From the NCBI RefSeq assembly GCF_003151075.1, contig NZ_CP029482.1:1426001-1490000 (forward strand): a DNA stretch of 64,000 nt. Direction: 5' to 3'. Below are positions 34,088 to 48,803 of this stretch, piece by piece. The notes below the pieces were generated by a model that did not search any database, had not been told where the DNA came from, and saw only the letters and a program-made list of their open reading frames with translations. The position numbers were made by a program, and so were the translations under genes. The DNA comes from Pseudomonas sp. 31-12. Lineage in GTDB: Bacteria > Pseudomonadota > Gammaproteobacteria > Pseudomonadales > Pseudomonadaceae. Numbering within the stretch: the stretch's first letter is position 1; every line of letters begins with the position of its first letter.

Positions 34088-37000
34088 ATGGGTTTCAATC
34101 TTTCCGAATGGGCGCTGCGCAATCGCCAGATCGTACTGTTCCTGATGCTCTTGCTGGCCGTCGTCGGCGCGCTTTCCTACACCAAACTCGGCCAAAGCGA
34201 AGACCCGCCGTTCACCTTCAAAGCCATGGTGATCCGCACCAACTGGCCGGGCGCCACGGCGCAGGAAGTCTCGCGCCAGGTCACCGAGCGCATTGAAAAG
34301 AAGCTGATGGAAACCGGCGAATACGAGCGCATTGTCTCTTTCTCGCGCCCCGGCGAATCCCAGGTGACCTTCATTGCCCGTGACTCCATGCATTCGGTGC
34401 AGATTCCGGACCTGTGGTATCAGGTCCGCAAAAAGGTCAGTGACATTCGGCACACTTTGCCGCCGGGCATTCAGGGGCCGTTTTTCAACGATGAGTTTGG
34501 CACTACCTTCGGCAATATCTACGCGCTGACCGGCGACGGTTTTGATTACGCGGTGCTCAAGGATTACGCCGACCGCATCCAGATTCAGCTGCAACGGGTC
34601 AAGGATGTGGGCAAGGTCGATCTGCTCGGGCTGCAGGACGAGAAGATCTGGATCGAGCTCTCCAACGTCAAACTCGCCACACTCGGTTTGCCATTGGCCG
34701 CCGTGCAGCAAGCACTTGAAGAGCAGAACGCGGTGTCCACGGCCGGGTTCTTTGAAACCACCAGCGAGCGATTGCAGCTTCGGGTTTCGGGGAATTTTCA
34801 GACCGTCGACGAGATCAAGAACTTCCCGATCCGCGTTGGTGATCGCACCTTCCGCATCTCCGATGTGGCCGACGTGCGTCGCGGCTTCAACGATCCGCCG
34901 GCACCGCGCATGCGTTTCATGGCGGAGAACGCCATCGGTCTGGCCGTGGCGATGAAGGATGGCGGCGACATTCTGGTGCTGGGCAAGGCGCTGGAAATCG
35001 AGTTCGACCGCATCCAGAAAAACCTCCCGGCCGGCATGCAGCTGCGCAAGGTTTCCGATCAGCCTGCCGCAGTGAAAACCGGCGTTGGCGAGTTCGTTCA
35101 AGTGCTGGTGGAAGCCCTGGCGATTGTGTTGCTGGTGAGTTTTTTCTCCCTCGGCGTGCGCACCGGCATGGTGGTGGCGCTGGCGATTCCGTTGGTGCTG
35201 GCGATGACCTTCGCCTGCATGTATTACCTCGGCATCGGCCTGCACAAGATTTCCCTCGGCGCGTTGGTTCTGGCACTGGGCTTGTTGGTGGACGACGCAA
35301 TCATCGCCGTGGAAATGATGGCGATCAAAATGGAGCAGGGCTTCGACCGCATCAAGGCGGCCAGTTACGCCTGGACCAGCACCGCGTTCCCAATGCTCAC
35401 CGGCACCCTGATTACCGCTGCCGGGTTTCTGCCGATCGCCACTGCGCAGTCGGGCACCGGCGAATACACGCGCTCGATCTTCCAAGTGGTGACCATCGCG
35501 CTGTTGGCCTCATGGATTGTCGCGGTGGTTTTCGTGCCATACCTGGGGGAAAAACTTCTGCCGGACCTGGCGAAAATTCATGCCGCCAAACATGGCACCG
35601 GTCAGCCCGACCCTTACGGCACGCCGTTCTATCAGCGGGTCAGGCGTTTGGTGGAGTGGTGCGTGCGCTGGCGTAAAACCGTCATCGTGCTGACCGTGGT
35701 GTTGTTCATCGGCTCCATCGTGCTGTTCCGCTTTGTGCCGCAACAGTTCTTCCCGGCTTCGGGGCGGCTCGAGTTGATGGTCGATCTGAAACTCGCTGAA
35801 GGCGCGTCCCTGAGCAACACCGCCGACGAGGTCAAACGCCTTGAAGCGCTTCTGAAGGATCACGCCGGCATCGACAACTACGTGGCCTACGTCGGCACCG
35901 GTTCGCCGCGTTTCTACCTGCCGCTGGATCAGCAACTGCCGGCGGCGAGCTTTGCCCAGTTTGTCGTCCTGGCCAAGACCATCGAGGAGCGCGAAACCCT
36001 GCGCACCTGGCTGATCGAAACCCTCAACGAACAATTCCCGACCCTGCGCTCACGGGTTACACGCCTTGAAAATGGTCCGCCGGTTGGCTATCCGGTGCAG
36101 TTCCGGGTGACCGGCGAGCACATCGAGGAAGTCCGCGCGCTGGCCCGCAAAGTGGCGGCCAAGGTTCGCGAAAATCCGCATGTGGTGAACGTCCATCTGG
36201 ACTGGGAAGAGCCGAGCAAAGTCGTCTACCTGAACGTTGACCAGGATCGCGCCCGGGCGCTGGGCGTGAGCACGGCGAACCTGTCCAAGTTCCTGCAAAG
36301 CTCCCTGACCGGTTCCAGCGTCAGCCAGTACCGCGAAGACAACGAGTTGATCGAGATCCTGCTGCGCGGCACCTTGCACGAGCGCACCGAACTGTCATTG
36401 CTGCCGAGCCTGGCGGTGCCGACTGACAATGGCCGCAGCGTGGCGCTGTCGCAGATCGCGACGCTGGAATATGGCTTCGAAGAAGGCATCATCTGGCACC
36501 GCAACCGCCTGCCGAACGTGACGATCCGCGCTGACATCTACGGCAAGGAACAGCCGGCGACGCTGGTGCAGCAAATCATGCCGACCCTCGATCCGATTCG
36601 CGCCGAACTGCCGGACGGTTACTTGCTGGATGTCGGCGGCACGGTGGAAGACTCTGCCCGTGGCCAGAACTCGGTGAAGGCCGGCGTGCCGCTGTTCATC
36701 GTGGTGGTGCTGACCTTGCTGATGCTGCAATTGCGCAGCTTCTCACGCACGGTGATGGTGTTCCTGACCGCGCCGCTGGGCTTGATCGGCGTGACGCTGT
36801 TCCTGATGGTGTTCCGCCAGCCGTTCGGATTTGTGGCGATGCTCGGGACCATCGCGCTGTCCGGGATGATCATGCGTAACTCGGTGATCCTGGTGGACCA
36901 GATCGAGCAGGACATCGCCGCCGGGCTCAAGCCGTGGCAAGCAATTATCGAAGCCACGGTGCGGCGTTTCCGGCCGATCGTGTTGACGGCACTCGCGGCA

Positions 37001-37153: not shown

Positions 37154-37206
37154 TCTCGGCGGCCTTCGGGCCGCCCGCTCTCTTGCTGACGTTCACCGCT
37201 CTAAAT

Positions 37207-37297
37207 TGTGGGAGCGAGCCTGCTCGCGATGGCGTCGTGTCAGGCAATACAATTTCGCAAATGGACGACCGCTTTCGCGAGCAGGCTCGCTCCCACA
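37207..37297. repeat. REP inverted pair
   Basis: Perfect 23-base arms at 37207-37229 and 37275-37297 (TGTGGGAGCGAGCCTGCTCG type), 45 bases apart, following the RND permease. Confidence 0.9.
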
Positions 37298-37337
37298 GTT
37301 AATCTTCTGAATACAAATACCGTGTACGACACAAAAC

Positions 37338-37368
37338 CCTGTGGGAGCGGGCTTGCCCGCGATGGCGA
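37338..37368. repeat. Solitary REP
   Basis: A single unpaired copy, CCTGTGGGAGCGGGCTTGCC..., 40 bases after the pair. No inverted partner follows within 150 bases. The interval 37369-37460 shows no recognisable feature. Confidence 0.85.
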
Positions 37369-37468
37369 TCTGGCAGGCGACTATGTTTAAAGATCTGCCA
37401 AAACATCAGAACCTTCCCACGAAATTTTCAGGTTGTCTGTCGGAAGCGCGATCTCTAGGCTTTTGGGT

Positions 37469-37693
37469 GTCGCTGCAAAAAGCAGCGACCGGGTTTCGCA
37501 GCCCGGTTAAACTTCAGACGCACAGCGTCCACCATCCGAAAGCGGGCGTTTTTTTATGCCTGTGTTATGGCGGCTGTGCGCGGGAGATCTTCGGGTCTGC
37601 CGGGTTCCTGAAGTCCCGGTCTGCGAACCTGCGTACAGCTGCCACCTTATGTTCGTTTCGCAGCGAACGGTGACAGCTCCACTACTTCAGGAG
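37469..37693 (+). ncRNA. C4-antisense-like structured leader RNA
   Basis: A long 5' leader before a DUF6124 gene. Hairpins: GTCGCTGC/GCAGCGAC (37469-37489); AGATC-UUCG-GGUCU (37585-37598, one G-U); CCGGG/CCCGG (37600-37619) with loop TTCCTGAAGT; these two lie inside a closing stem GGCGGCTGT/ACAGCTGCC (37569-37577 with 37635-37643); then GTTCG/CGAAC (37651-37668). Segments such as GCGAACCTGCGTACAGCTGCC resemble, from memory, the C4 antisense RNA family of P1-type phages and many proteobacteria. The loop is complementary to ACTTCAGGA (37684-37692), which contains the Shine-Dalgarno of the gene. AGCTGCCACC (37637-37646) can alternatively pair with GGTGACAGCT (37669-37678; one mismatch). Confidence 0.7.
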
Positions 37694-37700
37694 TTACACG

Positions 37701-38091
37701 ATGATTAAAGACAGCCCAAATCCTCCATACACGGAAGCAGAACTGGAAAAAGAAACCGACCCGGTTTCCCCCCTACGCCTTTCTCGATTCCAAAAAACTC
37801 CACGACGCGGCAATTCGCGCTCTTGATCACTATTTGGCGCCACCACCCGAAAAAAAGGCTAAAGCTGACCGTCGTTCCAGCTCGGTTTCCGTCATCGCCC
37901 CCAACGTTGATTCCGAAACCCTTTTGGCTCACGCCTGCGAAACCCTCGCTTCGGCAAATGGGATGGCCAGTGAGTTAGCCTTCGGTCTGAACGGACCGAA
38001 ATGCAATCTTATGTTGGCGGTTCAACAGATGATTTCGCTGGCGGAGTTATCGGTAAATCGCGTTCTGGATCAGGTTGATCCGCACCAGTAG
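37701..38091 (+). pseudogene. DUF6124-family gene, frameshifted in a C tract
   Basis: Reading from the ATG at 37701 (SD AGGAG) the start MIKDSPNPPYTEAELEKETD runs into a run of six C's (37768-37773) and would stop at TGA near 37826. Removing one C joins it to the frame YAFLDSKKLHDAAIRALDHY... that continues to TAG at 38091. The joined protein of about 129 residues matches the small DUF6124 proteins common in Pseudomonas (VDSETLLAHACETLASANGM, MISLAELSVNRVLDQVDP). The extra base could be a real mutation, phase variation or a sequencing error. A terminator follows. Confidence 0.8.
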
Positions 38092-46211: not shown

Positions 46212-48803
46212 TTAGACTGCCGGTGCCGTCTCTGTCGCGACCACCGGTTTCGGCAGCGAAGACAGGAACGCCATGATCAGCGCCGCCAGGTACGGCAGCG
46301 ACTGAACCAGCAACATGGTCACCCAGAAGCGCATGTCGTTGCTCGGCATGCCGTTCACCAAGTAAATCCCCAGTGCCGCGCCCCACAACAGCAGCATGAT
46401 GAACACCTCTTCGCGCGCCTCCGAGATCGCCACCCAGAAACCGTGGTTATCGGCGTTCTTCGGTGTGCGGAAAAACGGAATGCTGCTGGTGAAGAAGCCG
46501 TACAGCACCGCTTTGGCGATGGTGTGCGACAACGCCAGGCCGGCCAGTGCCGCGCAGAACGCATCCTTGAGGTTGACCCCCACTGCACGGCGGTAGAGGA
46601 AGATGATCTTGCCGACCTTGAACACGAACAGCGCCAGTGGCGGGATCGCGAAAATCAGCAACGGCGGATCGACCCGCTGCGGCACGATGATCATCGCCGC
46701 CGACCACAACAAGGCGCCCACGGTGAAGAAGATGTTCATGCCGTCCGCGACCCACGGCAACCAGCCCGCGAGGAAGTGGTAACGCTGGCCACGGGTCAGC
46801 TCGGTGCCCTTGCCGCGAAGCAAGCTGGTGGTGTGACGCTTGATGATCTGAATCGCGCCATAGGCCCAGCGGAATCGCTGTTTCTTGAAGTCGATAAAGG
46901 TATCGGGCATCAGGCCTTTGCCATAGCTGGTGTGGTAATACGCCGCCGACAGGCCTTTCTCGAACACGCGCAGACCCAACTCGGCGTCTTCACAGATGCA
47001 CCAGTCGGCCCAGCCCAGTTCCTCGAGCACAGAGCGTCGGGTCATCGTCATGGTGCCGTGCTGGATGATCGCGTCACGGTCGTTGCGGGTGACCATGCCG
47101 ATGTGGAAGAAGCCTTTGTATTCCGCGTAGCACAGCTTTTTGAAGGTGCTTTCGTTCTGGTCGCGGTAATCCTGTGGCGACTGCACCACGGCGATTTTCG
47201 GATCGGCGAAGTGCGGCACCATGTGCTTGAGCCAGTTCGGGTCGACGCAGTAGTCCGAATCGATCACCGCAATGACTTCGGCATCCTTGGCGGTGTGCGG
47301 AATCAGATAATTCAGTGCACCACCCTTGAAACCGGCCAACGGCGCGACGTGGAAGAACTTGAAGCGCGGGCCGAGGGTTTCGCAGTAATCGCGCACCGGT
47401 TCCCAGACCGCCGGGTCCTTGGTGTTGTTGTCGATGATCAGGACTTCGAAGTCCGGATAGTCGAGGTTGGCCAAGGCGTTGAGGGTCTGTTTGACCATCT
47501 CCGGCGGCTCGTTGTAGCAAGGGACGTGGATCGATACCTTCGGTCTGTAGTCCGATTCGCCGACCACCGGCAGGAATTCACGCCGGCGCTTGTGGGTCCA
47601 GACCGCCTCGGCCAGTTCATGCGCCTCGGTCAGTAGCACGATAAAGACCCCGAGTGCGCCGAGTGCGAGTAGGCCCCCGACCGTCAGGCTGAACCAGGTG
47701 CTGTATTGCAGGCTGTAGTCGTAACCGATCCACACCAGCACCGATCCGCAAAGGAAGGCGATAAAGGTCAGGAAGGTGCGGCCGCGTTGACGCAGGGCCG
47801 AGCCGTCGATCATCAGCAGGGTCAGGGACAGCAGCGCCAGGACCACCGAACCGACCGCCAGCACGCGCCATTGCGGGATCGCAACGACCGGGCCTTCGAA
47901 GTTGAATTTCTGCTGGCGTGCGGCGTTGAAAACACCCCAGTAAGCGCCCACCGAACCTTCGTCGCTGGCCTTCCATGGTTGGTCAAACGCTTCGATCACG
48001 AAGTAGTTGAAACCCTGGCGGTTGAGCTTGTTGACCAGTGTGCGCAGGTAAATCGCCTGGTCTGCCGGCGATGCATCGGCACCGCCGCGCATACGACCGT
48101 TGCTCGGCCAGCCGACTTCCGACAGCAACAGCGGTTTTTTCGGGAACATTTTTTTCAGATCACGGGCACGGTCCAGTACGAACTGCCCGGATTGCTCCAT
48201 CGGCACATGTTCCCAGTACGGCAGGACGTGGGCAGCGATCAGGTCGACGTGCTTGGCCAGGCTCGGGTTTTCTTCCCAGACGTGCCATTGCTCGGACGTG
48301 GTCACCGGCACTTTCACCGCCGCGCGAACGCGATCCAGAATAATGCTGAGTTCTGCAGCGGTAATTTCCTTACGGAAGATCGCCTCGTTGCCTACAACCA
48401 CGCGAACCACGCTGCGGGAGGTGTTGGCGAGTTCGATGGCGCGCAGGATCTCACGCTCGTTGCGCTCCTCGTCCGGGCTGATCCAGATACCGAGGGTGAC
48501 CCGCAGACCGAATTCTTCCGCCAGTTTGGGGATGTCTTGCAGGGAGCCGTCGACCGAGTAAGTACGGATGTTGTCCGTCAGCTTGCTCATGATCTCCAGG
48601 TCGCGACGCATTTCATCGTCGGTCGGATACTGCTCTTTTTGTGGGTACTGACCCTGCTGGAACGGCGAGTACGAAAAGCCGGAGATCTGCTCAGGCCAGT
48701 TGGGAGCGGTGACCGGGCGATTGATCAGCGCCCAGAAGCCGGTAAACAAGGCTGCGATGGCGAGCACCACGACCAGGTTGAGTCCAAATTTACGCGATGA
48801 CAT
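46212..48803 (-). CDS. ndvB: NdvB-type beta-glucan synthase with N-terminal GH17 domain
   Basis: An 863-residue membrane protein. TM at about 7-27; a GH17-like domain (about 40-305) with both glutamates in GNE (E140) and SEVGWPS (E229); two or more TMs; a GT2 domain with SIHVPCYNEPP, a VIDSDYCVD metal motif and QRFRWAYG; then C-terminal TMs. It matches P. aeruginosa NdvB, which makes periplasmic cyclic beta-1,3-glucans tied to biofilm tolerance. The GH17 unit probably transfers or cyclises the chain. dapE lies downstream, as in PA1162-PA1163 by memory. Confidence 0.88.
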   Translation of the reverse strand: MSSRKFGLNLVVVLAIAALFTGFWALINRPVTAPNWPEQISGFSYSPFQQGQYPQKEQYPTDDEMRRDLEIMSKLTDNIRTYSVDGSLQDIPKLAEEFGLRVTLGIWISPDEERNEREILRAIELANTSRSVVRVVVGNEAIFRKEITAAELSIILDRVRAAVKVPVTTSEQWHVWEENPSLAKHVDLIAAHVLPYWEHVPMEQSGQFVLDRARDLKKMFPKKPLLLSEVGWPSNGRMRGGADASPADQAIYLRTLVNKLNRQGFNYFVIEAFDQPWKASDEGSVGAYWGVFNAARQQKFNFEGPVVAIPQWRVLAVGSVVLALLSLTLLMIDGSALRQRGRTFLTFIAFLCGSVLVWIGYDYSLQYSTWFSLTVGGLLALGALGVFIVLLTEAHELAEAVWTHKRRREFLPVVGESDYRPKVSIHVPCYNEPPEMVKQTLNALANLDYPDFEVLIIDNNTKDPAVWEPVRDYCETLGPRFKFFHVAPLAGFKGGALNYLIPHTAKDAEVIAVIDSDYCVDPNWLKHMVPHFADPKIAVVQSPQDYRDQNESTFKKLCYAEYKGFFHIGMVTRNDRDAIIQHGTMTMTRRSVLEELGWADWCICEDAELGLRVFEKGLSAAYYHTSYGKGLMPDTFIDFKKQRFRWAYGAIQIIKRHTTSLLRGKGTELTRGQRYHFLAGWLPWVADGMNIFFTVGALLWSAAMIIVPQRVDPPLLIFAIPPLALFVFKVGKIIFLYRRAVGVNLKDAFCAALAGLALSHTIAKAVLYGFFTSSIPFFRTPKNADNHGFWVAISEAREEVFIMLLLWGAALGIYLVNGMPSNDMRFWVTMLLVQSLPYLAALIMAFLSSLPKPVVATETAPAV

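Follow-up and report, generated by a model that had tools for sequence, protein, structure and literature searches.

Can an RNA described as a phage immunity device act as the switch of a bacterial gene? The question is raised by a leader on the plus strand of a 64,000-nt stretch of the Pseudomonas sp. 31-12 chromosome (hereafter the window; contig NZ_CP029482.1, positions 1,426,001 to 1,490,000), which runs up to the start codon of a gene of the DUF6124 family. The original prediction, made from the letters alone, saw here a self-contained translation switch on a chromosomal gene, in which the loop of a C4-like hairpin pairs with the ribosome site downstream. That interpretation fits our results and is supported by the sequence comparisons. 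Indeed, the observation was correct and understated: an upstream a1/b1 set, a second pairing (a'/a2), about 50 sister loci and a frame break in the target gene lay beyond it. Our best explanation, to which we assign a probability of about 0.78, is that positions 37455-37700 form a DUF6124 leader like the immI region of phage P1, in which C4 locks the gene off, an a1-b1 RNA frees it, and most chromosomal copies regulate mainly themselves.

The proposed resemblance to C4 is borne out by a covariance model search. The Rfam C4 model (RF01695) matches 37563-37649 with 82.5 bits (E 1.2e-15; cut-off 45), placing the RNA within the family. Two Rfam matches exceed their cut-offs in the whole 64-kb window, this one and a t44 RNA; the latter (RF00127, 60576-60672, 71.4 bits) is ordinary. 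The extent first proposed, 37561-37700, does hold a real C4 leader, but the C4 is only one part of a longer leader, laid out as follows:

37455-37700, plus strand: the whole leader (a1, b1, C4, a2, c, b2), ending just 5' of the ATG at 37701-37703.
37455-37509, plus strand: c4-a1b1 element (Rfam RF03163), the first hairpin and the a1 hairpin on the 5' side of the leader.
37495-37501, plus strand: a1 target site TTCGCAG, exact complement of a' (7 nt), covarying with a' over 52 leaders.
37511-37517, plus strand: b1 target site ACTTCAG, exact 7-nt complement of the b' loop.
37525-37555, plus strand: possible weak intrinsic terminator (hairpin and T run), which could yield a short a1-b1 (IsrK-like) RNA.
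37569-37646, plus strand: C4 antisense RNA in its predicted mature form, positioned by comparison with P1 C4.
37600-37604/37615-37619, plus strand: C4 hairpin CCGGG/CCCGG, read from the sequence.
37606-37614, plus strand: b' loop TCCTGAAGT, with nine Watson-Crick pairs to b2.
37621-37627, plus strand: a' linker CTGCGAA, the 7-nt linker of the Rfam structure, covarying with a1 and a2.
37637-37646, plus strand: 3' arm of the C4 closing stem, AGCTGCCACC, with segment c as its alternative partner.
37657-37663, plus strand: a2 target site TTCGCAG in a hairpin loop, exact complement of a'.
37669-37680, plus strand: segment c, GGTGACAGCT (37669-37678) plus CC, able to pair with the C4 3' arm or, through 37677-37680, with the Shine-Dalgarno (SD) sequence.
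37684-37692, plus strand: b2 target site ACTTCAGGA, overlapping the SD AGGAG (37689-37693).
37701-38091, plus strand: target gene of the DUF6124 family, frame-broken, with a 41-codon ORF from 37701 and then the DUF6124 domain at 37834-38091 in another frame.

The loop TTCCTGAAGT and the ribosome-site segment ACTTCAGGAG lie where they had been placed, and form nine Watson-Crick pairs (37606-37614 with 37684-37692) plus a G-U pair (T37605/G37693). As in other C4 RNAs, a' and b' are complementary to a2 and b2 of the downstream gene, with b2 over the ribosome site, and an upstream a1/b1 set with exact 7-nt sites is present. A GG stands at the P1-equivalent 5' end of C4, the predicted position of RNase P processing, which for the C4 family gives an RNA of ~77 nt. 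The leader folds far better than its shuffles (z -6.9, 200 shuffles).

The 5' part of the leader scores slightly below threshold. RF03163 gives it 43.2 bits (cut-off 46.7), and gives 57.7-66.1 to seven leaders of related genomes (L103, L104 and L107-L111). The isrK model (RF01394) gives 42.9 bits, under its cut-off of 50, which leaves the window leader outside that family; a number of leaders in other genomes exceed both cut-offs. The a1/b1 sites and C4 probably share one transcript. A promoter scan found no promoter, and a terminator scan found three terminators, all on the minus strand, and did not call the hairpin and T run at 37525-37555.

Might all this be no more than an accidental palindrome, or a common hairpin or terminator that happens to lie by a start codon? 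REP-like repeats flank the region, as such a reading would have it, but the C4 model score, 55 paralogues and covariation make it vanishingly improbable, and on these grounds we rejected a chance hairpin, a terminator and a REP element. The one REP-like Rfam match (h2cR, E 1.6) lies at 37210-37289, separate from the leader. By eye, REP-like inverted repeats occupy 37205-37375, between an upstream transporter-like gene and the leader.

The paralogues are numerous. At E<=0.001 the single 6.73-Mb contig of the window's genome yields 55 C4 matches, 52 of them over the cut-off, and 14 control genomes gave no C4 match. The same genome has 49 a1b1 matches (18 over the cut-off), and 48 of these 49 lie no more than 200 nt before a C4. 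Seen from the other side, 48 of the 55 C4 matches have such an element and seven have no match to the a1b1 model. The 49th a1b1 element (L137, G000:C1:6461450-6462100; 41.8 bits, below the cut-off) is followed almost immediately by a DUF6124 gene, with no C4 found between the two. L137 is possibly a natural C4 deletion, which would leave its gene unrepressed.

Each C4 loop matches its own locus better than it matches the others. We took the longest complementary run of every C4 loop against the target regions of every locus, for all 55 loci, and set the result against 10,000 re-pairings. The own mean for b'-b2 was 7.02 nt, against 4.82 for other loci and 5.36 for the best re-pairing; the corresponding values were 6.73, 5.13 and 5.64 for b'-b1, 6.95, 4.34 and 5.11 for a'-a2, and 6.98, 5.18 and 5.71 for a'-a1. 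On average, then, own pairing exceeds all 10,000 re-pairings for all four contacts. The own site was at least tied for best in 32, 18, 32 and 19 of the 55 rows (b2, b1, a2 and a1, respectively) and strictly best in 16, 8, 14 and 3; it is often not strictly best because paralogues share addresses and short runs tie. Three C4 matches (52, 53 and 55) have weak own b1/b2 matches of 4-6 nt, and a b2 run of 6 nt or longer close to the assigned start is present at only 34 of 52 loci.

The same pattern appears outside this genome. Other genomes and phages, among them P1, supplied 35 distinct loci (reduced from 41 rows, many of them chosen by similarity to the window); here the own, other and best re-paired means were 8.43, 4.62 and 5.89 for b'-b2, 7.23, 4.34 and 5.23 for b'-b1, 7.09, 5.21 and 6.03 for a'-a2, and 7.09, 5.48 and 6.09 for a'-a1. 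Predicted duplex energies within the window's genome agree: for a'/a2 plus b'/b2 the own target ranked first at 37 of 51 loci and among the top three at 47, the others ranking 4, 6, 9 and 24. (The energy tests leave out locus 21 as well as 52, 53 and 55.)

Covariation points the same way. A mutual-information scan of column pairs in 52 aligned leaders, which was not told about the pairing, returned a1-a2, a1-a', a'-a2 and the arms of the C4 hairpin P2 at the top. In a 7-pair window, 93.9% of a1:a' cells are paired, compared with at most 72.9% in 500 row shuffles and 52.3% in slid registers; for a':a2 the figures are 91.7%, 73.8% and 48.6%. Both sides have changed at six of the seven pairs in each window. 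Counted over eight pairs instead, a1:a' stands at 83.6%; the controls belong to the seven-pair count. Loci 52, 53 and 55 were left out of the scan and the paired-cell counts, as they were from the SD and T-run counts below. The whole-leader alignment of these 52 leaders did not recover b'-b2 covariation, probably because loop length varies, so b'-b2 rests on the alignment-free tests. Because the paralogues are related, these covariation figures should not be read as probabilities. The own-versus-other tests suffer less from this, since shared ancestry lifts the 'other' values as well. At the level of sequence, these comparisons establish C4 membership, the a1/b1/a'/b'/a2/b2 pairing set, covariation among paralogues and some 50 sister loci, and most chromosomal C4 copies are apparently addressed to their own gene.

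Related leaders in other genomes change in concert, and with the own b'-b2 advantage at the 55 loci they uphold the expectation that loop and SD covary. The window's flanking genes were found around L102 (G005), L103 (G104) and L104 (G036) only, so these three represent the same locus. All keep b1 ACTTCAG, loop CTGAAGT and b2 ACTTCAGG; being invariant, they are conserved but uninformative on covariation. Five further leaders (L107, L108, L109, L110 and L111), 80-86% identical to the window leader over the matched part and without its flanking genes, have b1 ACTCTAG, loop CTAGAGT and b2 ACTCTAGG, so that all three sites differ together. L105 has the loop and b2 of these five, with b1 one letter off.

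The leader also has a second possible fold. The second segment of the original prediction, AGCTGCCACC, can indeed pair downstream as well as close the C4 stem; its partner is GGTGACAGCT, with one mismatch, and such a partner is a trait of the family. The duplex between the C4 3' arm and c has an own mean energy of -13.2 kcal/mol, compared with -12.0 for other loci and -8.2 for shuffled segments (n=51), and the best of 10,000 permutations (-13.0) falls short of it. Split by arm class, the permutations come up to the own value in 0.06% of cases for the main class (44 loci) and in 27% for the small one (7 loci).

The fold predicted for the window leader joins 37677-37680, at the end of c, to the SD letters GGAG (37690-37693), with the b2 letters ACTTCA in the loop. 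The C4 closing stem is formed and the b' loop open, with part of a' tied up with hairpin 1. At least three of the four SD letters are paired with upstream letters in 40 of 50 sister-locus folds; when c is shuffled, 22.6 do on average, and never more than 29. (This test used 50 loci of the window's genome, G000, leaving out locus 43 besides 52, 53, 55 and 21.) The folds of these 50 loci thus predict a conserved hairpin between a2 and the start codon, closed by pairing of c's end with the SD and displaying b2 in its loop; in it the SD can be hidden without C4. Segment c would then have two possible partners: the SD, with the ribosome site hidden and b2 displayed, or the C4 3' arm, with C4 undone and the SD freed. 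The functional consequences of this choice we infer.

These folds invite a purely cis-acting account, an attenuator in which c either masks the SD or takes the C4 3' arm as its partner, and no antisense RNA is released. The SD hairpin of the window fold and of 40 of the 50 sister loci speaks for it, as does the conserved pairing of the 3' arm with c. We nevertheless consider it unlikely, since it leaves unexplained the locus-specific match of b' and a' to b2/a2 and b1/a1, and since a free C4 RNA is produced in P1/P7 and, it appears, in Acinetobacter, according to the accessible text of PMC5320573.

In the P1-like scheme that we prefer, a1-b1, the C4 RNA, a2, c and b2/SD would all lie in one transcript. 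The end of c is predicted by folding to pair with the SD, which would hold b2 in a loop facing the C4 loop. C4 would be cut out of the longer transcript by RNase P at GG, as reported for P1/P7; once freed, its a' and b' would pair with a2 and b2, locking the ribosome site and turning the gene off. The inducer would be an a1-b1 RNA from the upstream part, produced if transcription ends ahead of C4. By pairing with the same C4 loops it would free the gene, much as happens with the short IsrK RNA in Salmonella. As long as the mRNA is uncut, the C4 3' arm could pair with c; this would unfold C4, free the SD and give an on state. The chromosomal copies would have drifted to private addresses, so that most regulate mainly themselves. 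A T run of at least five precedes C4 at only 16 of 52 loci; early termination may therefore belong to some loci only, and an IsrK-like terminated RNA is not evident everywhere.

The model for this scheme is P1 itself. In record AF234172 the order is a1 (48255-48261), b1 (48269-48276), c4 (48343-48419), a2 (48423-48429), b2 (48452-48459) and icd (from 48470), and the annotation has C4 repressing icd-ant via a2 and b2. Median spacings at 51 loci, accurate to about 2 nt because the mature C4 was taken as the Rfam match less 5 nt at each end, are ~74 (a1-C4), 61 (b1-C4), 9 (C4-a2), 30 (a2-b2) and 9 (b2-start codon); those of P1 are 88, 74, 4, 29 and 10. The window leader thus shares with P1/P7 immI (a1 b1 - c4 - a2 b2 - icd-ant; RF01695, RF03163) the covariance model, the order of elements, a/b sites of 7-8 nt and similar spacing. 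Processing of P1/P7 C4 by RNase P at GG is cited in PMC5320573. Unlike immI, these leaders are chromosomal, number about 50 in the genome, mostly precede DUF6124 rather than icd-ant genes, and differ in address from locus to locus. The target here is a chromosomal DUF6124 gene instead of a phage-borne icd-ant, and three sister loci have Bro-N genes.

The upstream half of the leader has a counterpart in Salmonella. On the minus strand of prophage Gifsy-1, isrK (34240-34316) and C4 (34131-34214) adjoin, 25 nt apart, which makes IsrK look like the a1/b1 half of such a leader. In P1 a weak isrK match (48230-48311; 35.1 bits, under the cut-off) accompanies the C4 match at 48337-48422. This suggests that the isrK and C4 families of Rfam describe parts of one layout, and the most likely scheme is then a promoter, an a1-b1 RNA (inducer), C4 (repressor) and the target. 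IsrK is a tested switch: a short terminated RNA that activates translation of its own read-through mRNA on binding to it in trans (PMC4825925). It controls orf45-anrP in Gifsy-1, whereas the window leader is chromosomal and below the isrK cut-off; within the same leader type it occupies the a1-b1-terminator half. The terms 'C4 RNA', 'P1 phage', 'immI' and 'icd' are absent from the main text of PMC4825925.

Two other systems bear comparison. The CI immunity RNA of satellite phage P4 (seqA, seqC) is likewise a processed leader RNA that pairs up- and downstream of itself (PMC4825925); the likeness is by description only, and CI acts by transcription termination, unlike the C4 scheme. In type I toxin-antitoxin systems an antisense RNA is encoded opposite a small toxin gene; the C4 described here lies on the same strand as its gene, in the gene's own leader.

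What does the window's leader control? A DUF6124 gene had been read as starting at 37701. The ATG is there (37701-37703), but its ORF has 41 codons only, and the DUF6124 domain (E 6.7e-25) follows in another frame. The break falls at a C-run before the domain and is possibly a sequencing error in this homopolymer. In L102, the 99%-identical relative in G005, the gene is intact, a single ORF of 129 codons.

This copy may be dying, its target already broken and its leader surviving only until decay, so that it controls nothing in this strain. The 41-codon ORF and frame break are what that account would lead one to expect, as are the eight differences from G005 in the ORF zone and none in the leader, and the frame or stop breaks at further loci (frame breaks at 23, 46 and 50; a stop at 33). 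Against it, the leader does not differ in a single letter over 37455-37700 from that of G005, where the gene is intact, and the homopolymer leaves room for a sequencing error. We regard decay as possible but doubtful.

Among the 55 loci, 47 have an ORF of at least 60 aa directly after the leader (starts picked by a simple SD rule), and Pfam assigns 31 of these to DUF6124, 3 to Bro-N and 2 to DUF3077, with 11 lacking a family at E 0.001. Conversely, 35 of the 41 DUF6124 genes in this genome have a C4 no more than 500 nt upstream. Of the Bro-N proteins, which are antirepressor-like, two were compared with PHROGs, and both matched phage anti-repressor Ant families; P1 C4 controls a protein of this class. 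At loci 2, 4 and 45 (L040, L042 and L082) a 28-38-codon ORF follows b2, and its stop overlaps the DUF3077 start (ATGA), which is the icd-ant1 arrangement of P1.

Beyond this genome, C4 was found in 138 of 149 genomes sampled from the genus (over the cut-off in 137), and 33 of the 149, the window's included, have at least 27 candidates; DUF6124 occurs in 118. In a sample of the class, 18 of 274 genomes have C4, the window's among them, and none of the other 17 has above six (with 15 candidates scored per genome and stricter filters). On these samples the C4 expansion looks like a genus trait.

The Pseudomonas phages phiAH14b (L131), vB_Pae_U10 (L132) and CF24b (L134) carry the same leader type. 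The chromosomal C4 RNAs could thus be mainly a trans-acting repertoire against phages and prophages with C4-type leaders, a form of superinfection control to which the linked genes are secondary. This is one of two options offered for Acinetobacter in the accessible text of PMC5320573, and a chromosomal leader with the letters of a phage leader also speaks for it: L095, from another genome of the genus, is identical to the phiAH14b leader in the compared stretch. Pure defence, however, would not need loops that on average fit the gene downstream of them better than they fit other loci, and we find this account distinctly improbable.

How much of this is new? C4 in Pseudomonadales was already known, as cited in PMC5320573, and Weinberg et al. 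2010 (PMC2864571) listed C4 in Proteobacteria and phages. Nor is it new to find many C4 RNAs in one genome: the Group 1 C4-like sRNAs of Acinetobacter baumannii comprise 21 chromosomal sequences, apparently processed at a GGW motif, and two more sRNAs are said to be antisense to these (PMC5320573). The accessible text of that account gives no cognate genes or matched a1/b1/a2/b2 sets, whereas here there are 55 matches, most with their own set and a linked gene. The literature searched (without most subscription papers and supplements) yielded no linkage of C4 to DUF6124, DUF3077 or Bro-N genes, no private a/b addresses of chromosomal C4 copies, no union of IsrK with C4, and no use of the name DUF6124.

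It seems that a phage immunity device became a large family of bacterial RNA switches. In its fullest form, which we hold at even odds, the proposal is that Pseudomonas turned the C4-IsrK switch of P1 and Gifsy into about 50 chromosomal three-part riboregulators (inducer a1-b1, repressor C4, target a2-b2/SD) with co-evolving private addresses, which would switch dozens of small DUF6124, DUF3077 and antirepressor-like proteins separately, with some cross-talk; C4 repression in P1 and trans activation by IsrK would be the two halves of one device. A chromosome with 52-55 copies of a phage immunity RNA, most apparently self-addressed, would be a natural set of near-orthogonal RNA switches, and its copies would illustrate the divergence of antisense specificity through compensatory changes at three sites. 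Treating IsrK and C4 as one layout predicts for both that genes silenced by C4 are activated by a short RNA made upstream of it.

The C4 leaders would also give a regulatory handle on DUF6124. Eight target proteins run against the PADLOC defence families gave no match, and NCBIfam gave the target proteins one match, far under its cut-off. The DUF6124 profile found no convincing relative of solved structure (best E 0.46) and compared with a DUF3077-like set at probability 1.3 and E 0.041. The N-termini of many DUF6124 proteins and of one Bro-N protein (locus 34) are alike, M(F/I)KxTPNPP, as if the leader cassette had included the first codons of the C4-linked proteins.
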